A stretch of DNA of 64,000 bases, taken from contig JAEEHB010000060.1 of NCBI GenBank assembly GCA_016280595.1, positions 1-64,000 of the forward strand. Direction: 5' to 3'. A model generated the notes under the pieces. That model was given only the letters and a program-made list of their open reading frames with translations. It did no database searches and was not told the origin of the DNA. Shown in pieces: positions 34,732 to 55,507 of the stretch (its first letter is position 1; each line of letters starts with the position of its first letter). Both the position numbers and the translations under genes were made by a program. Origin of the DNA: Clostridiaceae bacterium. GTDB taxonomy: Bacteria > Bacillota > Clostridia > Oscillospirales > Acutalibacteraceae.

Positions 34732-34761
34732 TTGACAGCGGCGCTTTATATTAGTTATAAT
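34732..34761 (+). promoter_or_regulatory. Consensus sigma-A promoter TTGACA-N18-TATAAT
   Basis: TTGACA 34732-34737; TATAAT 34756-34761; predicted start near 34768. Confidence 0.85.
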
Positions 34762-34767
34762 TCTCTT

Positions 34768-34998
34768 GAACATAAAGCGCACAGAGGGGGTAGTGCCCCC
34801 AAAAGCACTCAAGCCTCAGCGCAAAAGGTGTTCTTAATGGATTGACAGCGTGTCGTTTCAGCCGGTTTCCCGGCGGACGGCGTTGGCGAAGGCACAAAGG
34901 GAGGTCAGTCGCGGCGCGTGTCCGGGCGCACGGTTCCGGGCATGGTCAATCCGGAGCAACCTTAATGTATCTTAACCCGACAGGAGGTAAAAACCAGA
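34768..34998 (+). promoter_or_regulatory. Long structured 5' leader of unknown class
   Basis: About 230-nt GC-rich leader in an AT-rich intergenic region; GGGGG-TAGTG-CCCCC hairpin (near 34786-34800), enclosing ATTGAC/GTCAAT pairing, CCGG-rich internal stems. Confidence 0.5.
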
Positions 34999-37900
34999 AT
35001 GAAAAAATCACTTCGCGTAATTTCTCTCATTCTCTCCGTAGTTCTTGTAATGAGTACCCTTACGGTAATGGGCTATGCCAGGGCTGATTACAAAGGCAAC
35101 AACAGCACGTTGCTCAATCCCAACAATGCAAACGGATTGAAGTTTGACGATGTTGACACTGCCGTTTATTCTACGGAACAATACGCCACTATGGCGCTTG
35201 ACAGGCTCGATCAGCTGCTTGCCGAGTTGAACCTCAACCTTGAGATTCCCATCATCGGCAACCTCAACTTAACGAGCATCGACAGCACCATAGCCAATGT
35301 CAAATCACTTTGGCAGGGCGTTTCAGGTCTTCTCAACTCACTGGGCGACGCTTCACTGCTTGACCTGAGCGCCATTCAGAACACTGCCAGAGCAAACGGC
35401 TCCGACCTGCAGGTTGTTTATGACCTGCTCGACCTTATCGGCGGCCTTGCTCCCATCGCCAGCCTCTATGTTAGCGGCCAAATCGATCTCGGCCTGTTAA
35501 ACGGTCTGATTTCCGATTATGTCTTCAACATCAGAGAGCTTGTGTTCGGCCTTCTCTGCCAGCTTACCGGCCTTGCAGAAGGTCAGCAGCTCACCAACAA
35601 CAAGGGCGTTGGTACTGAAGATTATGAATACTTTGATGTAAAAGCTATCCCCGTCAGATACACTCAGTATGACGGCACCAGAAGCCCGACCATCGTATTC
35701 CTTCAGGACCTTCTCAACAACCTTGTTCTCGGTAACTGGGAAAAACTGAATGACCGTTTCTACGGTATCACCACCGCAGATATCGGCTACGGCGTCAACA
35801 ACAAGGGCTCATGGGTTGTATATGATGAATATATGTTCCGTGACGGCTCCGCATCCGGCGCTATAATCGATAAAACAACCAATCCGCTCGATCTTGAGCA
35901 TTACGACTATTACGGCTGGGTACATCCCGACAGATGGGTAACCTTCGGTCTCGGCGATGCTATCAGAGTCGCAAAGAATTCTGCTGCTCCCGCTCCTTCC
36001 TATTCAAAAGTTGACGTAAGCAGATTCACCGGCGGTAACAACGGCCTCAATGTTTACAATATGGTTGAAGAACTTCTTCTTCAGGCATACAACGGCATCG
36101 CTGTTCCCGTTCTCAACAGAATCGTTGCAAGGTGGCTCAATGAGAAGTGCGGCTACACCTTCGACAGCAAATACACCGAAGAGTGGATGAGAGACGCCAA
36201 CAACAATATTGTGACGGACGAGCAGGGCAACAACGTTCCCAACCCGTACTACGACTATATGTATATGGGCGAAGCTCCCGAAGAAGGCGCAAATTCCAAC
36301 GAAGCCATCTTCAAGATCTTCAACGCGGGCAACATTCATGTTCCCTATGCAACAGTTGAGTATCCTTACACACTGTTTGTTGACGCGTTTAACCACAACG
36401 CCGTAAACTTTGTTGATAAAATCATCAAGTACACTTCCAAGTCTACTTCCGGTGATGTCACCACCTACACCTGGAAAGATTTCAACAGTGCCGGTGTTGA
36501 GATTGCTTCCTATAATCTTGAACTTATCGACGGTGACAAGAGCAACCTTTCTCAGAACGTCCAGAACCTTGTCAAGTTCATTCTCAAGGTTACCGGCAAC
36601 GAGTTCTTCTCCAATTCTCTTGTCAACAGAGGAGAAGTTTATGATATAGACGAAATTGACCACCTTGAGTATCAGTCACTTATCGCTTATATCATCAGAA
36701 GCGTTATCAACGCCAGCGTTGACTGGATGTACATCCCCGACAATGCCGAAACCGAGACTATCGTCGGCGCGGGTCTTGAAGCATGCGCTCAGCTCGCATA
36801 TCAGGATATTCCCCAGTTTACCTACACTCTTCCCAAGACCACAGACTTCAGCACCCTTGAGGCTTACAATGTGGCCGCTATCAAGGAAGCCCTCAGAATC
36901 CTGATGGATGTTGCGGTTTACAACATCAACGCCAACCTTGACGCCGAGTATGCAACCGCTCCCGGCGCATCAACCACCAACAACGGCACCACCAACAACA
37001 CCGGTCTTCTTGCTTACCTCGGCAGCAACTCTTCTGTCGATTACACCAAGACCATCAGAGCACTTGCCGCATGGGGCGTAACCTTCTGGGCATCCACCAA
37101 ACTTCCCGGCGCAAGCTCATACAGCTGTCTGCTTAACAGAGATTTCAACAGTGACAACTACGGCGGCGCTTACACCAACCTTACCGAAAACATGGTTTGG
37201 GAGGACCTTGATACCCTTCTTAACAGCATTATCCCCATCAAGGGCAACACCGCATGGCTCGCCACCGAAATCAACTCGCAGACTTATGTAGTTAAATCCC
37301 TTTTATTTGATTACATTATATATCCTCTCGTCAACAACCAGTGGCCCACTCTGCTGAAGCTTCTCTCCAGAAACGAGAACAACAACGCAGAATTCAAGGC
37401 ATACGGTATTGAGAGAGTTATTATCAACCTTCTCAAGAGAATCTTCGATGTTCTCTTCCCGAACGTTTTCGCGGCAGACAAATTCGCTATCGATGACATT
37501 ATCAATAACACCCTTCTTTCAAACATGGTATCCGACCTTCTTACTACTCTGTCGGCCACGCTGAGTGTACAGACCAGTAAGACCAACAAAGTTCCAATCT
37601 CCGGCAGAGGTAAGATTATAGCCGGCGTTGCTCTTCCCATCGTATGTAAGATTCTCGGTCTTGACAGCAGACAGGAGTTCGGCGAGCTTGAAAACTACAT
37701 CCCGTCTGTTATCTTCCCCGACGGCAACAACAACTATAAATTCCAGGTTTTCAACGGCTCCACCGGTGTTAACACCAGTTACATGAACACCAGCGGCCGT
37801 GTTATCGACCATCTTTACACTTATAAGATTCTCACCGCGAAGTTCAAGGATGTTACCGCCTCAGGCGAAGGCACCAACCTCACCGGTCTTTCACAGAATG

Positions 37901-40323
37901 ACCAGATTGCCGGCGATCCCGCAGATGTTACCATTCCCAATATTACCGCGGGCAAACTTCTCAGAGTAAGAATTACTTATAATGTTCTTGATGAGAGCGG
38001 TTCACCGCTTCAGGCAAAGAACGAAAACAATCAGCTTGCCGATCAGGTTCTTACGAGTGACAAGTACTGCTACGTTGTTGCCGATGAAGATGCGGCAAAG
38101 AGCGACAGCGATGCTATCGCCACCGCGAATATCGGCGGATTCATCGTGAAGTACGCTCCCGATATCTATCTTGACAGCGGCACCGGCCTTTCCGGCATCA
38201 ACGATTACTCGATTGAAGTTAAGAATGACAGCGGCTCGGGCGGTCTGAGCATCGGCAACCTCAACGCATCCAGCCCCTGGATTGCAAAATCCACCGATGC
38301 CAAAGACATCTCGGTTGCCACTACCGAGCAGGGCGCTTCCTACTACCTGTATCCCTTCGATGCAGATACCACCAACTATACGAGAACCGCTTGGGAATAT
38401 CAGAAAGATGAAGACGATGCCTATGTTCTTGACCAGTGGGGTCAGAGAATAAAGACCACCGAAATCATCGAAGACGGCAAGACCAATATTGCCGACAACG
38501 TTTACACCGTTTCTGTTCCCGTCGTCATCGAAGGCGGCTCCTCCGCCTCCATCCAGGTCAGAGTTCACCTGTATGACAGTTACGGCCTCGGTTCACTTGT
38601 AAACAACGTACTTAAGAAGAACTATTCTTACAACAGCGTCAGGACCACCGGTACAGACGCGGTTGACACCCTTGAAGCTGAACTTATTAAAGCAATCCAG
38701 TTCCTCTATCCTCCCAGAAGAAACGGCGCCACATTTGAAGCCGATTCTGTGGAAGACGGAACAAGCAAATTCCTCACTCTTTACAGAGCGCTTTACTCTG
38801 CAGAGCAGGGTCTTGACAATTACCTGCTTCCCGCCAGCGCGCAGGAACTCTGGAATGCTATTGAAGGCACAGCATCCGCTCCCGGCATGAAGCACAATTA
38901 CAGCCGCGAGTCCTTCGTACGCAACGGCGTAACCCTCTATTACAGAGATTACCTTGAATATGATGAGACCGGTTATCAGTACTTCGGTCAGAGAAACTAT
39001 GTTGCTCACTCATATAAGGTATATAAGAACGCCGTAAGCTACGCAAACGGCTTGCTTGACAAAGAGTGGAAGTATGTCAATTACACTCCCGAAGAGTTCG
39101 ATGAACTTTCAGCCGAAGAACAGGCAGACGTAATTGAAGCCTTCCAGAATCAGGAGCCCGATATCATCACCCCGATTGAGTTCAGCTATGCAACCCATAT
39201 GCTTACACTCACTTATAACAGGCTCCGTCCCTACACCGAAAACAGCAACTCCAAACTTCTCCTTGCAATCTCCACCTACGGCTCAGAAACCGGCGACTTC
39301 ACCTCAGAGTCAGCCGCAAATTACGCCAGAGCGGTTGCCTTTGCAAATGCTTCCAAGACCAGCAACAACGCCGAACGTTACAACAAGGCGATGAGCAACC
39401 TCATAGAAGCGTGGAAAGGCCTTGAGCCCGGCGCAAATTATGACGATCTTGATGCGGCCGTTGAAGCAGCTCTTGAGATCTTCTCCGATCTCGGTATTGC
39501 CGATATGGCAGGCGACCTTGACCCTGACGCCCTTGCAACTCAGGACACTTACACTGCCGCTTCCATGGATGCTCTTGTTGCAGCATACGAGGCAGGCCGT
39601 ACAGCGCTTGACGAGCTTTCCTACTCATTAGCCGAGCAGGATAAGGTTGATGAACTTGCAGACGCAATCACCACCGCAATCAACAACCTCGAAGATTATA
39701 ATCCGGGCAGCGGCGGAGATGACGAAGATGAATTCTCATTCGGTGCTAACGATGAGTATTATGCAGAGGGTTGGCACGGTGAAGAATATGCGCCTTACAT
39801 TGACGAAGATTATGCTTCTCAGGCTGAATTGGAAGAAGTATACATTGAGGATCTGGGAGACGTTGTTCCGGTCAGCGGCGTAGTATTCGGTCTTCCCTCA
39901 GGCGCGGAAACGGAAGCCGTTAACAGTATGTTTACTGTAACTGACGGTTACTTTGTAATTCTTCCTTACAGTATTGACCCCGACAATATCAGCGAAGATT
40001 ATGCAAGTTCCGGCTCGGTTCTTCTCGTATTTGATAACAATGACGAGTTCCAGGGCGCATATATCCTTGCTCTCAGAGGCGACATTGACTCAAACGGCGC
40101 CTTTGATGACCTTGATATTGAGTGGGCAAGATTCGCCTTCGACAGCGACGGTGAAGACGGTTACGGTATCAAGTATTCAGAATGTGATGAACACAGATTA
40201 ATTGCTGCAGCTGATATGAACGCCGACGGCGCTTTCGACGACCTTGATATTGAGTATCTGCTGTTCTATTTCGACGGTGCGACACTTGATCAGGTAACAG
40301 GAGAAATCTTTATCGAAGAATAA
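34999..40323 (+). CDS. Giant secreted protein with C-terminal dockerin-like domain
   Basis: 1774 aa; signal peptide; C-terminal pair GDIDSNGAFDDLDIEWARFAFDSD ... ADMNADGAFDDLDIEYLLFYFDG resembling type I dockerin Ca-binding repeats. Confidence 0.85.
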   Translation: MKKSLRVISLILSVVLVMSTLTVMGYARADYKGNNSTLLNPNNANGLKFDDVDTAVYSTEQYATMALDRLDQLLAELNLNLEIPIIGNLNLTSIDSTIANVKSLWQGVSGLLNSLGDASLLDLSAIQNTARANGSDLQVVYDLLDLIGGLAPIASLYVSGQIDLGLLNGLISDYVFNIRELVFGLLCQLTGLAEGQQLTNNKGVGTEDYEYFDVKAIPVRYTQYDGTRSPTIVFLQDLLNNLVLGNWEKLNDRFYGITTADIGYGVNNKGSWVVYDEYMFRDGSASGAIIDKTTNPLDLEHYDYYGWVHPDRWVTFGLGDAIRVAKNSAAPAPSYSKVDVSRFTGGNNGLNVYNMVEELLLQAYNGIAVPVLNRIVARWLNEKCGYTFDSKYTEEWMRDANNNIVTDEQGNNVPNPYYDYMYMGEAPEEGANSNEAIFKIFNAGNIHVPYATVEYPYTLFVDAFNHNAVNFVDKIIKYTSKSTSGDVTTYTWKDFNSAGVEIASYNLELIDGDKSNLSQNVQNLVKFILKVTGNEFFSNSLVNRGEVYDIDEIDHLEYQSLIAYIIRSVINASVDWMYIPDNAETETIVGAGLEACAQLAYQDIPQFTYTLPKTTDFSTLEAYNVAAIKEALRILMDVAVYNINANLDAEYATAPGASTTNNGTTNNTGLLAYLGSNSSVDYTKTIRALAAWGVTFWASTKLPGASSYSCLLNRDFNSDNYGGAYTNLTENMVWEDLDTLLNSIIPIKGNTAWLATEINSQTYVVKSLLFDYIIYPLVNNQWPTLLKLLSRNENNNAEFKAYGIERVIINLLKRIFDVLFPNVFAADKFAIDDIINNTLLSNMVSDLLTTLSATLSVQTSKTNKVPISGRGKIIAGVALPIVCKILGLDSRQEFGELENYIPSVIFPDGNNNYKFQVFNGSTGVNTSYMNTSGRVIDHLYTYKILTAKFKDVTASGEGTNLTGLSQNDQIAGDPADVTIPNITAGKLLRVRITYNVLDESGSPLQAKNENNQLADQVLTSDKYCYVVADEDAAKSDSDAIATANIGGFIVKYAPDIYLDSGTGLSGINDYSIEVKNDSGSGGLSIGNLNASSPWIAKSTDAKDISVATTEQGASYYLYPFDADTTNYTRTAWEYQKDEDDAYVLDQWGQRIKTTEIIEDGKTNIADNVYTVSVPVVIEGGSSASIQVRVHLYDSYGLGSLVNNVLKKNYSYNSVRTTGTDAVDTLEAELIKAIQFLYPPRRNGATFEADSVEDGTSKFLTLYRALYSAEQGLDNYLLPASAQELWNAIEGTASAPGMKHNYSRESFVRNGVTLYYRDYLEYDETGYQYFGQRNYVAHSYKVYKNAVSYANGLLDKEWKYVNYTPEEFDELSAEEQADVIEAFQNQEPDIITPIEFSYATHMLTLTYNRLRPYTENSNSKLLLAISTYGSETGDFTSESAANYARAVAFANASKTSNNAERYNKAMSNLIEAWKGLEPGANYDDLDAAVEAALEIFSDLGIADMAGDLDPDALATQDTYTAASMDALVAAYEAGRTALDELSYSLAEQDKVDELADAITTAINNLEDYNPGSGGDDEDEFSFGANDEYYAEGWHGEEYAPYIDEDYASQAELEEVYIEDLGDVVPVSGVVFGLPSGAETEAVNSMFTVTDGYFVILPYSIDPDNISEDYASSGSVLLVFDNNDEFQGAYILALRGDIDSNGAFDDLDIEWARFAFDSDGEDGYGIKYSECDEHRLIAAADMNADGAFDDLDIEYLLFYFDGATLDQVTGEIFIEE

Positions 40324-40344
40324 TCTTTAAACGGTTTTAACAAT

Positions 40345-40369
40345 CCGGCGGGCGCAACCCGCCCGCCGG
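40345..40369 (+). other. intergenic hairpin between the two giant genes (no T-run)
   Basis: CCGGCGGGC-gcaaccc-GCCCGCCGG. Confidence 0.6.
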
Positions 40370-40405
40370 CAAAGAATAAACACTTATAAGGAGGCAGAAA
40401 TACAG

Positions 40406-43400
40406 ATGTCAAATTTTAAGCGGATTTTAAGCGCTTTTATGGCTGTGTTGATGGTTCTCGGTATGTTCTCCTGCCTTTCCACCATCGGTTTTGCAGGTTC
40501 TACGGACCATTATGTTCACCACTCCGTAAAGACCACTGCGACCAACGATAACTGGGACAAGACATACGACCATGCTGGCGAAGACTATACCACATCACAG
40601 AACAACAACATAAAATTATACAGTGAGCTTACAACCCTGTATGGCAATGACTATAATGAGCCGTTCATTTATTACGGCATTCAGTTCTTTGAGCCTGCGA
40701 CTGCAGCCGGCTCCGACACAATCGAGTATTCATATACCGATCCGGCAACAAATGAAGAAATCACATACTGGGCTCCCACCGACCATAAGGTTCAGCCCGG
40801 AGAGCCGCTTCTCGGCAGGTACTATTTCAAAACAAATGCATACATCGGTTCAATGCAGGCAAACTTTTTCTTCTCAAGAAAATTCTTTGATTTAGCACCG
40901 TCGCAGGCACAGACCTATACTGCATCATACGATTATCCGACAGATGCAACAGAAACTCTTTACACTCCCGACGGTCTTACCAACAAAACTTTCACCATTG
41001 CAGACGGCTCGGCTCACAATCCGAACGGTCCTTTCTACGCATCATTTGCTGAGCATGGTGTTGATGTATCCAACCCGAAAATCACTCTTGCCCGTGCTGC
41101 CAGAAAAGACGCGCAGTTAAAAGGAACGAAAAATCCTCCCAACTACGGTCTTTCATATGATACCACTTACGGTTGGGACGTAGCAGAGTATTACTGCACA
41201 TATACATATCCGTCAGGAACTGCCAATGCAGAAAAACTCTGTATTCCCATTGATGAAAATGTTGACGAATATTTCGGTCAGTGGGTTGTTAAAGTCAGAA
41301 CAACGTCTGAAGTAACATTCAAAGGAACTGCAAACGAAGGAACAGTTAACAATGTTACTCCCGGTACTGTAGGCTATGTCGGTTACGAAGAAGGCTATCA
41401 GAAGGGCATCAACAGTAACGCATCCAACGCAGTTCCCGTTGTTACCGACAGTTCCGCCAACATGTTAAAGACATCGGCAAAAGACCCCAGCGTTTTAGGT
41501 ATTACTTACCATCTTGATACAGAAGATGCCAACCACATCTTCGTTATTGACAATGGTAGCACTCCCTCACAGGGCAACAACATTAAATTCTATGACGGCG
41601 AAACCGAACTGACCGATCTCCGCATGACAAATCAGACCGGTTCTTCCGTTGATATTTCCGGCAAGACTTATTCCAAAGACGGCCTCACCTTCGCAGGCTG
41701 GAAAGATGCAAACGGCAATACCGTTACCACAGTTGACGCTTCCTCAGGCGACGTAAGCGTTTACGCAAAATGGAACGCAGTTGCAACCTTCACCGCTCCC
41801 GATGCGAACCCCGCATGGACGAGCCAGACCCAGACCGTTGAAGCGGTTTCCGGAGCCACCTTTACCGCTCCTTCACCCGCTCCCACCAAGTCCGGTTCCG
41901 TATTCGCAGGCTGGTATGTACAGGGTGACGCAACCCAGACTCTTGTCACCTTCCCCGCAGCAGCAACTGCAAATACCACCTACGTTGCGAAATTCTCACA
42001 GCAGTACACAATCAGCTTCTATGACAGAGGCACATTGTTTGATACACAGACCGGCCTTGAAGGTGAAACAATCTCCTTCCCGACAGAGGCACAGCTTCTT
42101 CAGGCAAACTCCAATGACGGCTATACTCTTACCGGCTGGTCTCCCGCAGATACCGTAATCAACTCCACTACCAGCAGATATGATGCCGTATGGTCCGAAA
42201 AGGGCTACACCGTTTATTACAATACCGACGGCGCCGGCACCATTGCAAACGGCAACTTCGTATACGGTGCAACAATCACCGATCCTTCACCTGCTCCCAC
42301 AAAGACAGGTTATCAGCTTGCAAGCTGGTCTTACTATGAAGACGCTGCATATTCGATTCCTTACAGCGGCGGCACAATGCCCGCAAAAGACCTTTATGCA
42401 AAGGCATCATGGACAGCAAACAGCTACCCCGTAACATTTACAGTTGACGGCGCGGAAGATACAAGCCTTGCAACAACCGCTGCTTATGACAGCAACATTA
42501 CAATGCCTCAGCTTCCCACCAAAGCAGGTTACTATTATGAAAAATGGCTGCCCGATGACGGCTACAGAATGGACAGCACAAGCGGCAAAGCTTACTCCGT
42601 AACAGGTCAGGCAATGCCCCAGCAGGCAACATTCAAAAACGGCAACACCACCATTGACAGCCAGTACTTCAACACCGATGCAGCCGTTACCTTCCCGAGC
42701 GAAGCTGACGTTGCAGCACACGGCGGCATTCCCAACGGTATGACCTTCAAGGGTTGGAGCCGCGGCTCCGGCGCAAACGCAGTCTTCATTCCCAAGGAGA
42801 ATGCGACCGATACCATGCCTCCCGAAGATACTGTTTACAGCGCAGTATTCGAAGGCACTCCGTACAACCTTACAATTTATGTTGACGGTGAACAGTACGG
42901 CGAAGTTCTGAGCGTAAACTACGGCGCAATTCTTCCTCTGCCCGAACTTGATCCTCCCACCGGTTACCATTGGGGTGATTGGCAGGGTGTTCCCGCAGAC
43001 GGATTGATGCCCAACAGCGACCTCACCGTTTCAATCAATTCTGTTATTAACCAGTACTCCATCATCGTCAAAGACGGTGACACCGGTGCTGTTATTGACA
43101 CCATCACCGACGACTACAACGCACCTATTACCGCTCCCGCACTGAGCACTTATGATAAGACGGGCTTCACCACTAACAGTTACAGCAAGGCATGGCCCGC
43201 AACAATGCCTCTTGACGGCGACGAGATTAGCGTTCTCTACACCAGAAACGATTATAAGATCAAGTACAACCTCGGTCTCGGCCTTGATCCCGTTGAGGTT
43301 TCCTATGCATATGAGGCACCTATCGCCGAATATGTACCCACAACAGAAGGCTATACCTTCGACAGCTGGAATCCCACAGTTCCCTCCACCATGCCCGCAG

Positions 43401-46258
43401 CGTCACAGGCAAATGCGGTTGCATTCGAAACCACTGCTGTATGGAACATCCATAAGTGGACAATCGAATATCAGACAAAACAGGAAGGCGGCACATACGG
43501 CAGATACGGTACTGTTGAAACCAACGTTGAATACGGCAGTGCCATCCAGCTCAGAGGCAAGAAGACTGAGACCGGTTACACCTACTCCGACTGGTCCGCT
43601 TCACCTGATACTTATGTAGCACCTCCCGCAAATATGCCCGACAGCGACCTTGTTCTGTATTCAACAGGTACAAAGAACACTTATGTTGATAAGTGGTTCG
43701 ATCTCGGCGCGGATCCCGCAACCGATGAGCCTTATCACACTGCAACAGTTGCTTACGGCGATACCATTCCTACCGTAGCTCTTCCCGAGCATGCAGGTCA
43801 GGTTGAGCCTTACTGGGAGGCAAATGTAACCGTTACCAACAACATTCAGCCCGACGAAGCGGTTATCTTCGTTTACAAGTCAACCGCAGGTCAGGTTAAC
43901 TACAGCCTTGTTTACAGCGTACAGCAGCTTAACGGCAGCTATGTTGACGAAGAGCCCATTATCCTCACAGCAACAGCAGGCAGCACAGTTTCCTCCGTTC
44001 CTTATCAGACCAGAGAAGGCTTCACCTGCAATGCACAGGGCACCGATGCAACCATCGTTGTAGCAGGCGACGGCAGCTCCGTAATGCATGTTAAACTTGA
44101 TCGTGCATCCTTCAACATCATCGTTAAAGTTGACGGCCTTGCAGATCAGAGCACAGCTTATCTCTACGGCGAAGCAATCAGCGAGCCCGCTGCTCCCACA
44201 GTTGAAGGCAAGACCTTCAAGACCTGGAAGTACACTAAGGGTGCCACCACTCAGGTCATCTCCTTCCCGGCAACGATGCCCGCTTATGACATCACCGCCA
44301 CCGCTCAGTTTGATGACAACAGCTACACCCTTACTGCTTATGTTGACTACCTTGACGGCAACGGCTTCGTTCCCTTCAGAACAGTAAGCTATACTCACGG
44401 ACAGACTATTGCCACTGTTGCCAACCAGAACAAAGAGTACTATGATTTCACCGGCTGGAAGACCACTTCCGCTCTTGAAACCGATTATGTATTCGGTACT
44501 CCCGCAACAGGCGATGTTGACATTTACGCATCCTTCACTCCCAAAGAGTACACCCTTATCTTCAAGAAGATGGTAAACAGTGAAGACCAGGGTCAGTTTG
44601 ATTCAGTCACCGCGAAATACGGCGCAGAAATCACCTATCCCGCAGCTCCTCCGGTAGCAGGTAACTCCTTCACAGGCTGGTCTGCAGAGTATGCAACCAT
44701 GCCCGGCGGCGGCGGCACCGTATATGCTTACTACGGCAGAGTACAGAGGACTCTTACCTTCGATGTTGACGGTAAGACCACAGTTCAGAAGTACTACATG
44801 GGCGACACCATCGTTCCCATTGACAATCCCTCCAAGACCGGTTATGTGTTCAACGGCTGGAATCCCGCACTTCCCGATCCTCTTGTAATGCCCGATGAAA
44901 ACCTTACCGTATCCGCCACATGGAGACTCGGCACATTCACCGTAACATTCATTGCGAACCCCGAGGATGTTGAAAACACAACCACCACATCTCAGGTTCA
45001 GTTTAACGATGAGTTCAATGCTCCCGAAAGCGTAGCCGACAGAGAAGGCTTCAACTTCGTCGGCTGGAAAGTTCAGGGTACACAAGGTTCCAACACCGTG
45101 ACCTTCCCGTACAAACTTGAAACCGAAGGCATCACCTTCGTAGGCGTATGGTCACAGGATCTTTCCGCAAAACTCGTTCAGAATGTTCAGCGCGCAGCAG
45201 ATCCCAAGTACTATCAGCTTGGTGAAACCGATTACACCGTAACCATCAAGACGAAGGCTCTCAAGCTTCACATCACCGATGGTACTACCACCTGGACTTA
45301 CAGCAAGCCCACATTCTACAATGCTCCCGAAGTCAGCGGCATTAAGTCAATCACTTACAACGATCAGACCGGCGAGGAAATCTGGGTAATCTCCGCAGCA
45401 CTTGCCGCAGGCGAAGATCTGTACAAAGCATATATCACTACTATGGACTTCACCCCGTATGATCCCAGCACTGGTTACGTCTTCAGCGTAATCTATGATG
45501 AGAGAGATGCTCAGACCATAGCAACCGAGTGCACACTTAATAGTGTAGAAAGCACAGCGTTTGAAGAAGGCACCTACAAACTTGTCCGCGGCAACTATGT
45601 AACATGGACCGTAACTACAACCAAGAACGTAACCTGGCTCAAGTTCGACTATGATTACACTTCAACCAAGGACGAAGTTACCAAGAGCTACAGCGTACTC
45701 TACAAGAGAGGCGCACAGGCGAGCGACAATCTCACCATCACCGAGAATGAGAACAACCTCGTCTGGGTCATCAGAACGGCTGTTACTTACACAACCTCCG
45801 ATCAGAGAGTAACTCAGAACTGGAAACTGTCCTACAAGACAGGTGCCACCTCCGATTACATCGCTGTAAACGAGGCAAGTCCCGTTCAGCTTATCGTCTG
45901 CCGCAACGACGACGCTATGACTGATTCTTCACCCAATTACGACAAGTATACAATCGTAAGCGCCAAATCGGCAGTTGAAGGCTCAGTGAAACTCGGCACA
46001 CGCAGCGACGTCGAAATCGTAACCACCGACGACTGTAACTATGTCCGTATCACTGTTGACGGCAAGAGCGCAACCTTCCAGCGCACCAGCGCCAATACCA
46101 AAGTCACCACAGACGGTATGGATCAGGGTCTCATCAAGTGGACGATCTACTACAAGTTCGCTCCCAAGAGCGGTGCAGGCCAGTATGAAGTAACCTGTAA
46201 CGCCCGCGGCCCGAGATGGGACGGCGCAGAATCCTTCAACATCGTTGTTACTGCGTAA
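40406..46258 (+). CDS. Giant secreted InlB B-repeat (Listeria-Bacteroides repeat, Flg_new) protein
   Basis: 1950 aa; signal peptide; ~15 repeats of the form (Y/F)xFxGWxx...MPxxDxxxxAxW; Ig-like C-terminal tail. Confidence 0.85.
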   Translation: MSNFKRILSAFMAVLMVLGMFSCLSTIGFAGSTDHYVHHSVKTTATNDNWDKTYDHAGEDYTTSQNNNIKLYSELTTLYGNDYNEPFIYYGIQFFEPATAAGSDTIEYSYTDPATNEEITYWAPTDHKVQPGEPLLGRYYFKTNAYIGSMQANFFFSRKFFDLAPSQAQTYTASYDYPTDATETLYTPDGLTNKTFTIADGSAHNPNGPFYASFAEHGVDVSNPKITLARAARKDAQLKGTKNPPNYGLSYDTTYGWDVAEYYCTYTYPSGTANAEKLCIPIDENVDEYFGQWVVKVRTTSEVTFKGTANEGTVNNVTPGTVGYVGYEEGYQKGINSNASNAVPVVTDSSANMLKTSAKDPSVLGITYHLDTEDANHIFVIDNGSTPSQGNNIKFYDGETELTDLRMTNQTGSSVDISGKTYSKDGLTFAGWKDANGNTVTTVDASSGDVSVYAKWNAVATFTAPDANPAWTSQTQTVEAVSGATFTAPSPAPTKSGSVFAGWYVQGDATQTLVTFPAAATANTTYVAKFSQQYTISFYDRGTLFDTQTGLEGETISFPTEAQLLQANSNDGYTLTGWSPADTVINSTTSRYDAVWSEKGYTVYYNTDGAGTIANGNFVYGATITDPSPAPTKTGYQLASWSYYEDAAYSIPYSGGTMPAKDLYAKASWTANSYPVTFTVDGAEDTSLATTAAYDSNITMPQLPTKAGYYYEKWLPDDGYRMDSTSGKAYSVTGQAMPQQATFKNGNTTIDSQYFNTDAAVTFPSEADVAAHGGIPNGMTFKGWSRGSGANAVFIPKENATDTMPPEDTVYSAVFEGTPYNLTIYVDGEQYGEVLSVNYGAILPLPELDPPTGYHWGDWQGVPADGLMPNSDLTVSINSVINQYSIIVKDGDTGAVIDTITDDYNAPITAPALSTYDKTGFTTNSYSKAWPATMPLDGDEISVLYTRNDYKIKYNLGLGLDPVEVSYAYEAPIAEYVPTTEGYTFDSWNPTVPSTMPAASQANAVAFETTAVWNIHKWTIEYQTKQEGGTYGRYGTVETNVEYGSAIQLRGKKTETGYTYSDWSASPDTYVAPPANMPDSDLVLYSTGTKNTYVDKWFDLGADPATDEPYHTATVAYGDTIPTVALPEHAGQVEPYWEANVTVTNNIQPDEAVIFVYKSTAGQVNYSLVYSVQQLNGSYVDEEPIILTATAGSTVSSVPYQTREGFTCNAQGTDATIVVAGDGSSVMHVKLDRASFNIIVKVDGLADQSTAYLYGEAISEPAAPTVEGKTFKTWKYTKGATTQVISFPATMPAYDITATAQFDDNSYTLTAYVDYLDGNGFVPFRTVSYTHGQTIATVANQNKEYYDFTGWKTTSALETDYVFGTPATGDVDIYASFTPKEYTLIFKKMVNSEDQGQFDSVTAKYGAEITYPAAPPVAGNSFTGWSAEYATMPGGGGTVYAYYGRVQRTLTFDVDGKTTVQKYYMGDTIVPIDNPSKTGYVFNGWNPALPDPLVMPDENLTVSATWRLGTFTVTFIANPEDVENTTTTSQVQFNDEFNAPESVADREGFNFVGWKVQGTQGSNTVTFPYKLETEGITFVGVWSQDLSAKLVQNVQRAADPKYYQLGETDYTVTIKTKALKLHITDGTTTWTYSKPTFYNAPEVSGIKSITYNDQTGEEIWVISAALAAGEDLYKAYITTMDFTPYDPSTGYVFSVIYDERDAQTIATECTLNSVESTAFEEGTYKLVRGNYVTWTVTTTKNVTWLKFDYDYTSTKDEVTKSYSVLYKRGAQASDNLTITENENNLVWVIRTAVTYTTSDQRVTQNWKLSYKTGATSDYIAVNEASPVQLIVCRNDDAMTDSSPNYDKYTIVSAKSAVEGSVKLGTRSDVEIVTTDDCNYVRITVDGKSATFQRTSANTKVTTDGMDQGLIKWTIYYKFAPKSGAGQYEVTCNARGPRWDGAESFNIVVTA

Positions 46259-46289
46259 TCAGTCTGACAACAGCATAACAACATAACAC

Positions 46290-46324
46290 GCGCCCCGGAC
46301 AGTTTGACTGCTCCGGGGCGCTTT
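46290..46324 (+). terminator. terminator
   Basis: GCGCCCCGGA-cagtttgactgc-TCCGGGGCGC-TTTCCCTTT. Confidence 0.8.
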
Positions 46325-46334
46325 CCCTTTGGTC

Positions 46335-47335
46335 GGTCGTAGCAATAAGCGCGAAAAACGAAAAAACAAATTATAAAGGAGTACGGGTTTTGCACTCGTA
46401 CTTCTTTTCTTTATGTGTTCTGATTTGAATAAGGAATAGTTGATTATTGTTTTTTCTCAACGCCTTTATTCGCTCGCCGTACCTTAGTACTGTCTTCGCT
46501 CATAAATGAAAACTAAGACCGTCAGAAACACAGTCGTCTCACTCGCTTTTTCACTTCGTGATACTCCTTGTTTCTTCCTTTCACCGCCTCGCTTCATCGT
46601 CTGACGGACCCGTCCCCCTTTGTCACTTCGTGACATTTCCCCCACACTGTGGGGGAATCTTCCACAGGCAGCGCTTCGTCGGTTCGACACCGTATCCCGA
46701 TACTGTCTTCAGTCGAAAATACGCCGTTTTCATCCTTTTCTGTTCCCTCCCTGAGTGCCGCTCAGGAAGCAACATCAAAAACGGATTGTATTTTAAATAA
46801 ACTCTCCGTAGGGAACGACGTCCCGGCGTTCCGACCGTGCCGCAGGCGCGGAGTTTAGAAGTGAACCAAACATAATAATTGTCATTCCGAGCTTGTCGAG
46901 GAATCTGCACATAGATCCTTCGACTCGCTCTGCAACCCCTCAGAAACATAGTCGCCCTGCTCACTGGTTCGTTTCGCAGTTCTCCTTGTTTCTTCATCTC
47001 AGCGTAACGCCTTTATCTGCCACAGGCAGCGGCGTTACGCTTCGACCCAGGATGACACAAGTGTTAATGCATACCCCGTAGGGGTGCGGGTGTCCGGCGG
47101 ACACCTCTGCCGCAGGCAGAAGCACCGACCGAACCGACAGGTGAGACCGGATATCATCCGCCCGCCAAAAAGGATATGCGTGAGCATCAATGTAGGGAAC
47201 GTCGTTTCGGTGTTCCGTCCGTGCCGCAGGCACGAAAATGCCTTCCCCTCAAGGGGAAGGCTTATCATCGGCGCCCTGCGCCCCTCAATTCTGCATTCTT
47301 AATTCTGCATTCCGCATTGCGAATTGGCACAATTA
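46335..47335. repeat. Non-coding mosaic of dispersed hairpin repeats
   Basis: Shares modules with 25853-26430; internal duplicates of GTAGGGAACG(A/T)CGT..GGNGTTCCG(A/T)CCGTGCCGCAGGC (about 46808-46856 and 47191-47240); hairpins GTCACTTCGTGAC and CCCCCACACTGTGGGGG. Confidence 0.85.
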
Positions 47336-47667
47336 TCACCAACCGAAATTTGCAATATCGAAATATGATGTAAACTATGCCGAATTTTCGTTTTGGGGTG
47401 AAATATCGCTTGCAAAATCCCCATATATAATGTAATATATATTTGTTCGCGGCAACCGTACGGTTGCTTTGATTTTTGTCCGGCAATCAATTACCTGCCC
47501 GGGCTCTTCCGGATGCGTGCAAAACGCCTTCGCCGTGATTAATCCGGCCGGTGAAAACCCGGTGAGCGTGGCAGAAAATCCCCCTCAGAACCGCCTTTTC
47601 CCTCCAAAAGGGTTAAAAAGCGGTTACAGTTTGCTTACAAAATTGTTAAAAAAATGTAAATTATTGC

Positions 47668-47696
47668 TTGACATATAGACATTTCAATGTTAGAAT
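47668..47696 (+). promoter_or_regulatory. sigma-A promoter TTGACA-N17-TAGAAT
   Basis: TTGACA 47668-47673; TAGAAT 47691-47696. Confidence 0.75.
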
Positions 47697-47809
47697 AAGG
47701 TGATTATAATTGGATATTAGTCTGTGCCTGCCCGGATAACAGGCACCGATTGTATTCGGTTGCTCACAAATTCAATGCAGAAATGCAATGTTTCAAAGGA
47801 GGAAATTGC

Positions 47810-50800
47810 ATGAAAACATTTAAAACTTTTGCGAAGAAACCTTTAGCAGTTCTTCTGGCTGTCATTATGGTGGTCGGAAGCATTTCGGTTATCGCAATGG
47901 CAGTCGATGAACCCACAGGCAATGCTGAATTCATAGCCAATTTCAAGGTTTATGATGAAGACTCTGAGAGTTACAGCATTGATGATTCAGCCAATGGTAT
48001 TGAATATGCAGGGCCCGGTGACAAGGTTAAAGTCGAGTTAAGACTTGCCACGGACTTTACTGTATGTGATATGGGCTTTATTTTCAAGTTTGATAAAGAT
48101 GTTTTTGATTACGCCTGGTCCTATAATGGCTGGGAAGATGACTTCGAAGATTATTTTGAAGAAGTGGATGACGGCACATATAATGTTCCAGATCTTAACT
48201 CCAACTATAATAGAAGCCAGTCCTTTATGTATGAGGAAGCCACTCACTTTGAAAATATAGAAAGCACAGGAGTAAGTGCAAGTGAATTCACCAATATGGG
48301 CGGCATCTATTTTATCTTGATGAAGAAGAGTCAGGATAGATATCGTCATCAGTATGGTACTTTTACGCCTGTAGAAGGTCAGAGTGTTCCTACATTTTCA
48401 GATCATGAGCTTATCTGCTCAACTTACCTTATTGTTAAGCAGGATGTTCAGCTTAGTGATGTCGGTGAGTTCATTCTCGTTGAGCCGGCAACTAAAACGC
48501 TTTCAAAAGGCGGAGCAAACACTTATCTCTATAATGAGATGACATTGTATGACGCTGATAGAAACGAGGAGTGGGCAGCTGCCACTTATAATTTCAATTT
48601 GACAGGCGTTTCCGAAGCCCTTATGTTCGGCGGTAGCATTCGTGCATATACTATAAACGGCTACGGCTATTATCCCGGTGCAACCCAGGATGATCCCCGG
48701 GAGACCGAGCGCGACTTCTATGCGGAATACGGTGCTACATATGCCGAGGCCAAAGAAGCCGATCCCAATAACGCTATTCCCGATCCCACACCCGTGAGTG
48801 ACGACTACACCTTCTTAGGCTGGTCTACAGAACTTCCGACAATCACCGACGGCAGTACTGCTGCTCCGACCGATGAAAACGGCAGACCTGTTTACGGCGG
48901 CGATTACAGCAAAATGCTCACAGAAGCACAGCTTAACGAGATTAAGTATCTCGGTTTTGACAGCGAAGAAGTACCCGTTTCAAAACTCTATGCAGTATAC
49001 ACCGCAGCTGACACCTCTTATACTGTAAATGTCAAGGATCCTCAGGGCGACGATTATGCCGACGGCTCCAAGTCGGGCATCGCAGGTTATATCGGTGAGC
49101 AGATAGCAATCACTGCTGATGCTCTTCCCGACGGCGTTTCACTTCCCGAAGGCACTGAAATAGACGCTATCTCTCCCGCAACTCTTACTCTCGGCGCAGA
49201 TGAAACCGCCAATGTCATCACCATCACCACAAAAGTTAAGACCTTCACTGTAACATGGAAAGAAAACGCTGATGACACTGACAGCCTTAAAGAGATAACG
49301 GTTGATTACGGCACCGATTTGACTGATACAAACAACCAGGATTATGCAGATCCCGATCTGAAGTATCTCGATAAAACTTCCGATAACTTCGGTACATATG
49401 TATCCAAGTGGACCGATCATCCCACCTCTGTAACGAGTAATGTAGTTCTCACACCCGCAGAGTATTCACCTCTTCCCGTAAAGGTCATCTATGACAACAA
49501 AGACCGGGCAGGACACGTTGGTAAATTTGACACCAACGGCGAAAACCCGCTCGAGTCAAGTGTTAATTACGGCACAGCCATCAGCGCTGCATTCACCGAT
49601 ACTCTTAAGGCTCCCGAAGGCTATATGTTCGCTTCCAACGGCGCAGAATACCTTGAGCCCGACGCAACGGACTACACTGCGGTTGCCAATCTCAGCAGCC
49701 TTCCCGCAAATGTCAATAAAGACAATTACGAGATCGTAGTTGATAACGATACTCTTACCGTCAACATTTACCCCGTATTTGAGATTATGGACGGTAACGT
49801 AGTATTCAACGCAAACGGCGGTAAGTTCGATACTTCCGTATCCTCCGATCCCGATGCGCTTTCATACGATCTTAATTACGGCGATACTTACACAATTCCC
49901 GATGCTGATGATTTCAGCCAGAAAAAGACCGATGATAATGGTGCATCCTACTATGACTTCATCGGCTGGAACACCGATCAGAACGCGACAGAAGCAATCT
50001 CAGTTTCCGGCACATTTAAGCCCGAAACAGACGACGCAACCGAAACCTACTATGCAGTTTGGAAAGACAACAGAATTACTGTTACCTTCGTAGGCAAGGG
50101 CGGCAACACCGATGTCGTCAAGACCTTCAAGAGAAACCTTGTTGACGGCAAGTATACTCTTACCGATGATGATATGCCCGCAGCCGATGCTGTTCAGACA
50201 GATGAAGGTGAGACTTGGGTATGGGATATCGATAACAACGAACTCACATCCAATACCACAATCGCCGGTCACTCTGTATATGATGTGAAATACAGCTGGA
50301 CCGATGCTTCCGGCAACGCCCAGAACGCAAATGACGGACCTCGTCCGGCAAGTGATGAATTCACTGCACTGGCTGCTCCTGAGTTTGACAGCACCAAATA
50401 TGAGTTCAAGGGCTGGTACAAAGACAGCATCCGTGAAGGCGATCCCGATTATGCACCCGGTGCACCTATCACAATGCCTGCCGAGGCTCTCAACCTCGTC
50501 GGTCAGATAGTTCCTCAGACCTTCAAGATTACCTATAAAGTAAGCGGCGCAGGCTACAACTCCGCAGATACATACGCTGAAGAAAACTATGCTTACAATG
50601 ACGATGTTACTCCTTATGCCGAGCCTGCGGCTATCGACGGTTACACCTGGAGCGGTTGGTCAGATATTCCCGAAAAGCTGCCTAACTATGCTGTTACAGT
50701 AACAGGCACCTTCACTCCCAAGCAGTACTCCATAGTTTATGTTGATCCCGATGGTCACCTTGTAAAGGCAATCACCCAGGATTATGACACCCCAATCAGT

Positions 50801-52537
50801 GAGGGTGCTCCCGATATTGATAATAACTGGCATACTCCTGCACTGACCTACACAGGCTGGGATTACGAACTTCCCGAAAAGATGCCTCTGTTTGCCGACA
50901 CCGACACCTTCGAGGTTGACGGCGTAACCTACACCGGCGTTAAGGTATCTCCCGTATCCCGTCCGAACGAGAAAGTAACGGTTTACTTCGAGCACATTGA
51001 CGGTGAAAAGGATTCCCTTGAGGATTATCCCGGCAGCCCGCTGAATGAGAGTGATATTCCCGCTTTCAGAGGCACAGATATCAAAGACGGCTATGATGTA
51101 GCATGGGATCAGACTCTCACCGTATTCCCCGATACTGAAACCACAATCAAGGCTGTTCAGACACCCAAGAAGGTCAATGTTACTATTGATACGGGCGACA
51201 GCTCAACAACCACTTCCACTCAGGTTGATTACAACGCTAAGATTGATAAGCCTTCAGATCCCACCAACCCGAATTACCCCGACTTTGAAGGCTGGTATCT
51301 GCCCGACGGCACACCGTTCGATTTCGATCAGCCCATCGATCAGATAGGTTCCTACACTGAAGATCTTACCATCACCGCGGTTTACAGCATAACCGATACT
51401 TACTATCAGGCTACCGGTGTTGACACCGCTACCGGTGAATTCACCTACACTGCAGATAAGACTTTCAAGAACTACAGCAACAAGACCGACGATGATTCCT
51501 ACACCGCTCCGACTGTTGATGATATTCTTAAGATGGAAGGCTTCACCGCTAAGTTCTGGAGTCTTGATAAGTCAACAGAAATTGTTCCCGACGGAAACTT
51601 CGCAGCAACCTCAAGAGAGTTCTACCCCGTTTACGAGATTAATAAGCACACTGTTACTTACGTAAACGAAGGTGCCGATTATAAGGTATTTACTGATGTT
51701 CCCTTCGCAGGCGATGTTCCCAGACCCGACGCCGATCCCACAAGCGCGGATCCCGAGCTTGTATTCGCAGGCTGGAAAGACGCAAAAGGCAATGCACCCG
51801 GCGACTATGCTTCAATGCCCGATGAGGATCTGACCTTCACCGCTCAGTATGTTGTTCCCGGTGCAGACTACACTATCACTTACTATGACCGCGAAGGCAA
51901 TGTATACAAGACCTTTGTTGTACATTCCGGCGATCCGATAACCGATGAATACATTCCCGATGATCCCACAAGATTCGGCTTCGTATTCAAGGGTTGGGAT
52001 CCTGAGATTCCCGATGTAATGCCCGAAGAGAATCTTGAGTTCAACGCCAAGTGGGAAATCGATCCCAAGTTCGTTGCTCTCGTAATCGGCGGCGTGGTTG
52101 TATCCGGCGCAGTTGTCGGCGGCGTTGCAGCAGCTAACACTGCTCTCATCACCGGCGCGGTTATCGCAGGCGGCGCTCTGGTAATCGGCGGTATCGTTCT
52201 TGCCGAGCACACCTACAAAGTAACCTACATCGTTGACGGTGAAGTTTACAGAACATTCTACATCGTAGAAGGCACCAAGATCATCGTTCCGAAGGATCCC
52301 ACTAAGGACGGCGCAACCTTCGAAGGCTGGACTCCCGAGATTCCCGAGAAGATGCCCGCAAATGATCTTACCTTCAGCGCAACCTGGTCCACCGACAAGG
52401 CCGATGACGGCGCAGCACCTGTTGACAGCCTGATTCCCGATACCGGTTCTGCAACAGCAGGTCTCGCGGCATTCGCAGTAATCTCCTCTGCAGCCGCAGC
52501 CGCATATGTCATCACCCGCAGAAAAAAGGAAGACTGA
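47810..52537 (+). CDS. Cell-wall-anchored InlB-repeat protein with cohesin-like N-terminal domain
   Basis: Signal peptide; AGPGDKVKVELRLATDFTVCDMGFIFKFDKDVFDY; ~12 InlB-like repeats; C-terminal LIPDTG + hydrophobic stretch + RRKKED. Start at MKTFKT with AGGAGG RBS. Confidence 0.82.
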   Translation: MKTFKTFAKKPLAVLLAVIMVVGSISVIAMAVDEPTGNAEFIANFKVYDEDSESYSIDDSANGIEYAGPGDKVKVELRLATDFTVCDMGFIFKFDKDVFDYAWSYNGWEDDFEDYFEEVDDGTYNVPDLNSNYNRSQSFMYEEATHFENIESTGVSASEFTNMGGIYFILMKKSQDRYRHQYGTFTPVEGQSVPTFSDHELICSTYLIVKQDVQLSDVGEFILVEPATKTLSKGGANTYLYNEMTLYDADRNEEWAAATYNFNLTGVSEALMFGGSIRAYTINGYGYYPGATQDDPRETERDFYAEYGATYAEAKEADPNNAIPDPTPVSDDYTFLGWSTELPTITDGSTAAPTDENGRPVYGGDYSKMLTEAQLNEIKYLGFDSEEVPVSKLYAVYTAADTSYTVNVKDPQGDDYADGSKSGIAGYIGEQIAITADALPDGVSLPEGTEIDAISPATLTLGADETANVITITTKVKTFTVTWKENADDTDSLKEITVDYGTDLTDTNNQDYADPDLKYLDKTSDNFGTYVSKWTDHPTSVTSNVVLTPAEYSPLPVKVIYDNKDRAGHVGKFDTNGENPLESSVNYGTAISAAFTDTLKAPEGYMFASNGAEYLEPDATDYTAVANLSSLPANVNKDNYEIVVDNDTLTVNIYPVFEIMDGNVVFNANGGKFDTSVSSDPDALSYDLNYGDTYTIPDADDFSQKKTDDNGASYYDFIGWNTDQNATEAISVSGTFKPETDDATETYYAVWKDNRITVTFVGKGGNTDVVKTFKRNLVDGKYTLTDDDMPAADAVQTDEGETWVWDIDNNELTSNTTIAGHSVYDVKYSWTDASGNAQNANDGPRPASDEFTALAAPEFDSTKYEFKGWYKDSIREGDPDYAPGAPITMPAEALNLVGQIVPQTFKITYKVSGAGYNSADTYAEENYAYNDDVTPYAEPAAIDGYTWSGWSDIPEKLPNYAVTVTGTFTPKQYSIVYVDPDGHLVKAITQDYDTPISEGAPDIDNNWHTPALTYTGWDYELPEKMPLFADTDTFEVDGVTYTGVKVSPVSRPNEKVTVYFEHIDGEKDSLEDYPGSPLNESDIPAFRGTDIKDGYDVAWDQTLTVFPDTETTIKAVQTPKKVNVTIDTGDSSTTTSTQVDYNAKIDKPSDPTNPNYPDFEGWYLPDGTPFDFDQPIDQIGSYTEDLTITAVYSITDTYYQATGVDTATGEFTYTADKTFKNYSNKTDDDSYTAPTVDDILKMEGFTAKFWSLDKSTEIVPDGNFAATSREFYPVYEINKHTVTYVNEGADYKVFTDVPFAGDVPRPDADPTSADPELVFAGWKDAKGNAPGDYASMPDEDLTFTAQYVVPGADYTITYYDREGNVYKTFVVHSGDPITDEYIPDDPTRFGFVFKGWDPEIPDVMPEENLEFNAKWEIDPKFVALVIGGVVVSGAVVGGVAAANTALITGAVIAGGALVIGGIVLAEHTYKVTYIVDGEVYRTFYIVEGTKIIVPKDPTKDGATFEGWTPEIPEKMPANDLTFSATWSTDKADDGAAPVDSLIPDTGSATAGLAAFAVISSAAAAAYVITRRKKED

Positions 52538-54609: not shown

Positions 54610-54696
54610 GCCGGTGTGGCGGAATAGGCAGACGCAAGGGACTTAAAATCCCTCGGTGGCAACATCGTACCGGTTCGACCCCGGTCACCGGCACCA
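54610..54696 (+). tRNA. tRNA-Leu (UAA), CCA encoded
   Basis: GCCGGTG/CACCGGC acceptor, GGGACTTAAAATCCC anticodon arm, long variable arm, GGTTCGACCCC T-arm, ACCA end. Confidence 0.97.
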
Positions 54697-54730: not shown

Positions 54731-54808
54731 CATTTGCAAATAAATCTATTGAAACATACGCCTTGATGTGCTATACTTCTTATGAAGAAAAAACAGGAGG
54801 TCATTATT

Positions 54809-55330
54809 ATGGGTCTGTTTTCCAAAATACTCGGCGGCGGCGAAAACGCCGACAAAGCCGAGCAGATGGCAAAAGATTTGCTCAAAGGCATTATGAACGG
54901 CGCGGTTTCCGCCGAAAAGAAAGACGAGCAGCAGCCTCAGCAGAGCGCGCCCTCATCTTACGCCCCCACGCAGGGTAAGCCGAAGCAGGGCTTTTCGTGG
55001 GGCGACGTGAAACCCGACGAAGAAAACCAGTTTGATTATCCCGGCCCCTATTACGAATATTTCAAAAAGATTTACTCCGAGGAATTCCCCGGCTACGACC
55101 TTCGGTGCGAGGTTGTCAATGAAGGCGCAAGGGCGGCAATAGCCTTTATTTCCGATGACAGAACCGCTCTTATGGTAGAACTCGTTTCCGAAAACTCCAC
55201 CGCCGACAAACTCCGCAGAAGATGCAAGGCCAACGGCATCCCATATCTCCGTTTCTATCACAATCATCACGGCTGGTGGAACACCCGCGCTTATGTAGTT
55301 GAGCGCACCCGCAAGGCGCTGGGCGCCTGA
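54809..55330 (+). CDS. Hypothetical protein, C-terminal domain possibly nuclease-like
   Basis: ATG with AGGAGG RBS; low-complexity linker then ALMVELVSENSTADKLRRRCKANGIPYLRFYHN. Confidence 0.7.
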   Translation: MGLFSKILGGGENADKAEQMAKDLLKGIMNGAVSAEKKDEQQPQQSAPSSYAPTQGKPKQGFSWGDVKPDEENQFDYPGPYYEYFKKIYSEEFPGYDLRCEVVNEGARAAIAFISDDRTALMVELVSENSTADKLRRRCKANGIPYLRFYHNHHGWWNTRAYVVERTRKALGA

Positions 55331-55340
55331 TAATTTCACA

Positions 55341-55482
55341 TAAAACAGAAAGAGAATGCTTTGCGCCTGCGGCGGACCCGGCACGGACTTTTCAGAGTGC
55401 TTCGCAGGCAGTGTGCCCGTGTACGGTCCCGTACATTCAGGGTAATTAACCCTGGATTTAATTTCTTCTCTTTCTGTTTTTA
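55341..55482 (+). ncRNA. Candidate structured RNA associated with the reverse transcriptase gene
   Basis: Perfect 15-bp inverted repeat AAAACAGAAAGAGAA (55342-55356) / TTCTCTTTCTGTTTT (55466-55480) enclosing stems GCCTGCG/CGCAGGC (55365-55371/55403-55409), TGTACG-gtcc-CGTACA (55420-55435), CAGGGT-aatta-ACCCTG (55438-55454). Confidence 0.6.
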
Positions 55483-55507
55483 TTTTATCTGATAAAAGGT
55501 AAACGCC

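Follow-up and report, generated by a model that had tools for sequence, protein, structure and literature searches.

Giant surface proteins with predicted cohesin and dockerin ends: putative parts of an enzyme-free assembly in a relative of ruminant-gut Clostridia

Cohesin-dockerin pairs, in which the cohesin binds the dockerin through its 8-3-6-5 sheet, are known mainly as couplings of enzyme machines. The scaffoldins described to date fall into several classes, among them cell-wall-anchored (nonSLH) scaffoldins and monovalent or polyvalent adaptor scaffoldins (PMC11557425). In Limousia, the N-terminal cohesin of cSca5 is predicted to take the dockerins of scaffoldins, and the protein ends in an LPxTG anchor (PMC12997984). 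Dockerins with a dual binding mode owe it to their internal symmetry, and the dockerin of PDB entry 5lxv has a single binding mode (PMC5429695).

The locus described here lies in a 64,000-nucleotide stretch of one contig (the window) and encodes three giant proteins. The housekeeping gene mfd places the host among ruminant-gut Clostridia MAGs, as an uncultured relative of these, and the assembly is 78% complete. The reading we favor, with fair but far from full confidence, is that the three proteins belong to a cohesin-dockerin assembly built of giant surface proteins and carrying no enzymes. Domain identities, domain order, an anchor motif, gene linkage, genus-wide conservation and the lack of recognised catalytic domains in the scanned set were established directly, while binding, pairing and an adhesive or structural fibre are inferred.

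All three open reading frames were confirmed on the plus strand, at 34999-40323, 40406-46258 and 47750-52537, and the region singled out by the original prediction opens at 34768, just past a sigma-70 promoter match at 34732-34761 (Table 1). Because of the promoter matches, the 82 bp spacing of genes 1 and 2 and a hairpin after gene 2, the first two genes appear to form an operon, and gene 3 to be transcribed separately from a promoter of its own, although there are no transcript data. The start of protein 3 is most likely the ATG at 47810, which has AAAGGAGG upstream, rather than the TTG at 47750. Between genes 2 and 3 lies a 1.3-kb non-coding stretch (46330-47660) containing several near-repeated GC-rich segments. 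Elsewhere in the window, a probable anti-phage reverse-transcriptase unit (54782-56716, plus strand) adjoins a tRNA-Leu gene (54610-54696); it comprises an RTasCOG2852 protein of 182 aa, a UG26-type reverse transcriptase (PADLOC E 1.9e-171) and an RT-5 RNA at 55361-55469 (Rfam 77.7 bits).

Table 1. Position, strand and supporting evidence of the features annotated at the locus
Feature	Position	Strand	Basis
Sigma-70-type promoter (TTGACA-18-TATAAT) of the putative protein 1 - protein 2 operon	34732..34761	+	12/12 consensus match
Protein 1, 1774 aa: signal peptide, ~1500-aa body, C-terminal X-like module and predicted dockerin	34999..40323	+	ORF
X-like module, aa 1632-1693, directly before dockerin	39892..40077	+	Alignment A3, 26 sequences: G..GTG...V......G...Y....RGD
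Predicted dockerin, two Ca loops	40078..40320	+	D1 of loops at 40081 and 40213
Protein 2, 1950 aa: cohesin-like domain at N-terminus, then InlB B-repeats; no anchor recognised at C-terminus	40406..46258	+	ORF; PF09479 E 5.4e-60
Predicted divergent cohesin domain of protein 2	40664..41437	+	Profile A4; AlphaFold pTM 0.79; Foldseek
GC-rich hairpin 3' of the protein 2 gene, likely terminator	46290..46321	+	Fold -27.5 kcal/mol, z -3.4
Protein 3 promoter (TTGACA-17-TAGAAT, TG ahead of second hexamer)	47668..47696	+	11/12 consensus match
Protein 3, 1575 aa from ATG: cohesin-like domain at N-terminus, then InlB B-repeats and a sortase signal	47810..52537	+	ORF
Predicted divergent cohesin domain of protein 3	47930..48511	+	Profile A4; AlphaFold pTM 0.70; Foldseek; hhalign 91.8% to cohesins
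Gly-rich hydrophobic hairpin, ~45 aa, inside protein 3	52058..52195	+	~100 aa before anchor
Sortase-type sorting signal of protein 3 (LIPDTG, hydrophobic stretch, RRKKED)	52430..52534	+	PF00746 E 7.3e-4

Protein 1 gave no Pfam or NCBIfam match in a whole-protein scan, and it carries neither a cohesin nor an anchor. Its body (34999-39890), some 1500 residues kept across the genus, holds no recognised domain. A sister gene on contig C12 of the same genome (L139) encodes another dockerin-tailed giant, of about 1800 aa, in which nothing besides the dockerin was recognised. FIVAR-like helices close to the protein 1 C-terminus reached an E-value of 0.04 and are not claimed. In all protein 1 orthologues the X-like module, with its G..GTG...V......G...Y pattern, stands immediately ahead of the dockerin. 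The pairing is reminiscent of X-dockerin dyads by its arrangement; homology to known X modules is not implied.

The terminal sequence of protein 1, DIDSNGAFDDLDIEWARFAF ... DMNADGAFDDLDIEYLLFYF, had been described as two near-identical Ca-loop repeats, and this description proved accurate. Two 12-residue loops, DIDSNGAFDDLD and DMNADGAFDDLD, carry acidic residues or Asn at positions 1, 3, 5, 9 and 12 with dockerin-type spacing, and repeats 1 and 2 are identical at 13 of 23 residues. With a duplicated 12-residue Ca loop and a following helix, the tail meets the motif criterion of a dockerin; loop positions 1, 3, 5 and 12 stay acidic or polar in most tails. When the genome was searched with Pfam Dockerin_1 (PF00404), the protein 1 tail was matched only weakly and below the cut-off (E 0.021, 16.2 bits vs 22.9), whereas other dockerin-tailed giants of the genus pass it (L305 with 34.6 bits and L306 with 38.5 bits), as does the sister gene on C12 in the genome search (26.4 bits). 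Profile-profile comparison of 31 protein 1 tails with a tail set that includes Dockerin_1-positive relatives gave 99.5%. The best PDB sequence match of the tail, a very weak one (E 0.3), was to the dockerin chain of 5lxv. Because protein 1 scores below the Dockerin_1 cut-off while other giants exceed it, we term the tail a divergent dockerin, not a Pfam-defined member; that it binds a cohesin in a calcium-dependent manner is only inferred, from sequence.

Repeats 1 and 2 of the same protein agreed at 0.27 of the tested positions, against 0.11 for repeats of different proteins, and the within-protein value was reached in 0 of 5000 permutations (27 protein 1 tails). Among array tails, many of the more divergent ones are not parsed by the simple loop pattern and fall outside this symmetry test. 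Both faces of the dockerin change together from species to species, which fits symmetric, dual-mode binding; gene conversion between the repeats could be an alternative source of the agreement. A distance-matrix test of dockerin against cohesin, given the protein 1 body, returned a partial r of 0.42 (2/5000). Because the X-like module scored nearly as high (0.32), the signal that dockerin and cohesin covary over and above their shared descent is weak and only suggestive, and does not serve as main evidence.

The N-terminal domains of proteins 2 and 3 were modeled with AlphaFold at moderate confidence (mean pLDDT 71 and 67, respectively; pTM in Table 1). With the protein 2 model, the top 20 Foldseek matches in the PDB were all cohesins, led by 5lxv (E 1.4e-3) and 5k39 (probability 0.98), none of them passing E 0.001. 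With the protein 3 model, ranks 1-34 were cohesins, the best again being 5lxv (E 2.2e-7, probability 1.00), and target TM-scores were mostly about 0.5-0.6 for single cohesins; rank 35 was a non-cohesin adhesin domain (CLIPPER, 9ifr). Judged by Foldseek, both models meet the criterion of a cohesin jelly-roll, and the possibility that these would be plain Ig or MucBP domains was not borne out.

Sequence profiles were compared by hhalign, using 30 bona fide cohesins of the order. These cohesins reached 95.3% with a set of intermediates (domains from sister genera and internal cohesin-like domains) and 91.8% with the protein 3 family (A2), but only 46.8% with the protein 2 family (A1), while A1 and A2 matched each other at 97.4% and unrelated cross-family control profiles gave at most 2.4%. 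In a genome search, the protein 3 profile alone picks up the protein 2 domain (E 9.5e-4). By these comparisons the N-domains of proteins 2 and 3 are homologous, and the 'pGd...f...fd' pattern that had been proposed to be common to them is real and conserved in relatives. Pfam Cohesin (PF00963) matched nothing anywhere in this genome, and neither it nor NCBIfam detected a cohesin in proteins 1-3; the same Pfam model has matches in 133 of 295 genomes of the order. Against PDB sequences, an HMM of the protein 2 N-domain gave no match and that of the protein 3 domain gave weak cohesin matches (3ul4, E 0.074; 1aoh, E 0.52). One of the intermediates, a 365-aa protein of a sister genus (L149) found by the protein 3 profile, combines a Dockerin_1 match above the cut-off (32.2 bits) with a weak Cohesin match (E 0.0013). 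The name cohesin-like is used because the Pfam cut-off is not met and the profile-profile values are 91.8% and 46.8%. Resting on profiles and models, our assignment is that the N-domains are divergent cohesins missed by Pfam, with their binding of dockerins inferred.

InlB B-repeats (Flg_new, PF09479) make up most of proteins 2 and 3, with 12 and 7 stretches and E-values of 5.4e-60 and 2e-24, and both proteins qualify as tandem Flg_new repeat proteins. A sortase-like anchor had been suspected on protein 3, and its LIPDTG...RRKKED signal scores 19.9 bits against a Gram_pos_anchor cut-off of 20. As the protein has an LPxTG-like motif, a hydrophobic stretch and a basic tail, and the genome has four sortase matches, protein 3 meets the criterion of a sortase-anchored protein. 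No recognisable anchor was found on protein 2. The Gly-rich hairpin located about 100 residues before the sortase signal also occurs in five related anchor proteins (L076, L111, L112, L113 and L114), and not in L150.

Relatives of protein 1 were found in 38 of the 99 genomes searched, nearly all of the same genus. In at least 19 genomes, protein 2 follows immediately after protein 1, and most of the others hit a contig edge at that point. Protein 3 adjoins only in the closest relative (G040), its relatives otherwise being dispersed. Comparison of the protein 1 N-terminus with a named genome collection confirmed no relative. Of 45 genomes searched with profiles of tail and head, 44 have dockerin tails and 41 have cohesin-like domains; the present genome holds four of each, differing in sequence. 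Among the matches listed, at least 40 ORFs hold both a cohesin and a dockerin, with the cohesin N-terminal to the dockerin in 40 of 40. At least 52 of 123 dockerin tails among the matches listed, in 28 genomes, are followed, 173-565 bp further on and on the same strand, by a cohesin-like domain encoded in the next ORF, and in no listed case does a cohesin-like domain on the opposite strand follow within 1 kb. Because they are drawn from the matches listed, these neighbour counts are lower bounds. One array (G044:C22) contains four consecutive cohesin...dockerin giants of 2000-3600 aa. On contig C10 of this genome, a 3188-aa cohesin...dockerin ORF is followed after 115 bp by an ORF that starts with a cohesin and is cut off by the contig end, and contig C29 opens with an ORF ending in a dockerin; the two truncated ORFs may be one gene. 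The locus is one node of a genus-wide system. The original prediction of a 'mini' system of three genes is supported as to its cohesin and dockerin parts, but its frame was too small, and protein 2 has no visible anchor. In another genome, G035, two small secreted proteins of 385 and 400 aa (L313, 2292-3449 and 3478-4680) contain two X-dockerin copies each and are possible cross-linkers; a profile search found no cohesin-like domain in that genome.

The absence of a catalytic domain had been claimed for the locus alone. No such domain was found in proteins 1-3 with Pfam and NCBIfam, and the claim extends to the 14 dockerin-tailed proteins of other genomes that were scanned. In total, 17 dockerin-tailed proteins of the genus were scanned with Pfam, namely those 14 and three of the four in this genome (protein 1 and the C10 and C12 ORFs), so that not all dockerin-tailed proteins are included; none had a recognised catalytic domain. 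The 14 from other genomes carry InlB repeats, Big_3, BspA-type LRR, SHIRT or nothing known. The mark of a cellulosome or mucinolysome, dockerin-bearing enzymes on a scaffoldin, was not seen among the 17. It could still be argued that the locus belongs to an enzyme complex of cellulosome type, with its dockerin-borne enzymes missed in an incomplete genome. The level of completeness would allow this, the gene just upstream of protein 1 encodes a GH36 alpha-galactosidase, and elsewhere in the family enzymes do carry cohesin/dockerin ends, as in a subtilase from another genus (L145:6364-9789) that bears a dockerin tail along with a cohesin-like domain and an InlB repeat. However, the GH36 protein has no dockerin match, and with only repeats, LRRs, SHIRT and unknown regions seen in the tailed proteins scanned, we regard an enzyme complex as very improbable.

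A more serious objection is that the domains descend from cohesins and dockerins without binding each other, the N-domain being a cohesin-fold adhesin or stalk cap for other ligands and the dockerin a calcium-stabilised C-terminal cap. Strong divergence, the failure of PF00963 to match, the CLIPPER domain in the protein 3 Foldseek list and the fact that the remainder of the proteins is stalk repeats all agree with such a loss. It does not sit well with a two-fold dockerin symmetry kept within each protein while the sequence shifts between species, with Ca-loop positions kept acidic or polar in most tails, or with tails and cohesin-like domains that co-occur across the genus and adjoin in the DNA; we consider it unlikely, though not to be dismissed. 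Binding may also be real with the partners assigned differently, protein 1 docking onto another cohesin (e.g. on C10) and proteins 2 and 3 taking other dockerins. Four tails and four cohesin-like domains of differing sequence allow several pairings, and the assembly is incomplete. The position of protein 2 right next to protein 1 throughout the genus, and the recurrence at many loci of a dockerin tail next to the cohesin of the following gene, make this arrangement rather doubtful, more so than an absence of binding.

Under the favored reading of an enzyme-free assembly, protein 3 would be linked to the wall by sortase and form the base, holding its N-terminal cohesin outward on the InlB-repeat stalk. 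Protein 1 would be secreted and act as a cap, its C-terminal X-like module and dockerin docking in a calcium-dependent manner onto a cohesin, which could be that of protein 2, of protein 3 or of a sister protein elsewhere in the genome. Such docking would place the large conserved body of protein 1 on the cell surface. Sister proteins that have a C-terminal dockerin and a cohesin at or near the N-terminus could serve as links between base and cap, extending the chain. More tentatively, and as a conjecture that we would put at well short of even chances, the genus may build ordered non-covalent fibres by head-to-tail cohesin-dockerin coupling of InlB-repeat giants, with an anchored base, links and a dockerin-only cap, the gene order (tail of n beside cohesin of n+1) mirroring the order of links. 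If true, gut bacteria of this kind assemble large modular surface structures from parts annotated as hypothetical InlB-repeat or dockerin proteins, and this enzyme-free use would have stayed hidden as the cohesins lie under Pfam detection. Gene order would then yield direct, testable partner predictions, and the system would offer new orthogonal pairs for protein engineering.

Cohesin-dockerin coupling itself is already known. No paper naming dockerin together with InlB B-repeats was found in the open-access literature searched. Nor did the literature covered, which excluded most subscription journals, contain a set of giant InlB-repeat proteins coupled by cohesin and dockerin throughout a genus and free of enzymes. 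As giant secreted or wall-anchored repeat proteins, those described here resemble fibrillar adhesins and internalin-type InlB B-repeat surface proteins (PF09479), but differ from them in their cohesin and dockerin ends. In having a small conserved module directly before the dockerin, protein 1 resembles the X-dockerin dyads that serve in type II cellulosome anchoring (PDB 5g5d, 5m0y). The best structural match of both N-domains, 5lxv, is a complex of the Ruminococcus flavefaciens ScaC cohesin and its dockerin. It connects enzymes with an adaptor, unlike the present proteins, and the dual mode suggested by symmetry here contrasts with the single mode of that dockerin. Proteins with one or more cohesins and a dockerin in a single non-catalytic chain (G044:C22, G032:C37 and C10) are comparable to monovalent and polyvalent adaptor scaffoldins, although here they are InlB-repeat proteins of 2000-3600 aa in head-to-tail gene arrays, with no enzymes to carry. 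Protein 3, with an N-terminal cohesin-like domain and a C-terminal LPxTG-type signal, is most readily set beside cSca5 of the Limousia mucinolysome, a proposed receptor for the dockerins of other non-catalytic proteins. That system includes many dockerin-bearing glycoside hydrolases, whereas here no dockerin-tailed enzyme was found, the cohesin lies below Pfam detection and the stalk is made of InlB repeats. The role of an anchored cohesin that we propose for protein 3 nevertheless has a direct precedent in the predicted role of cSca5 (PMC12997984).
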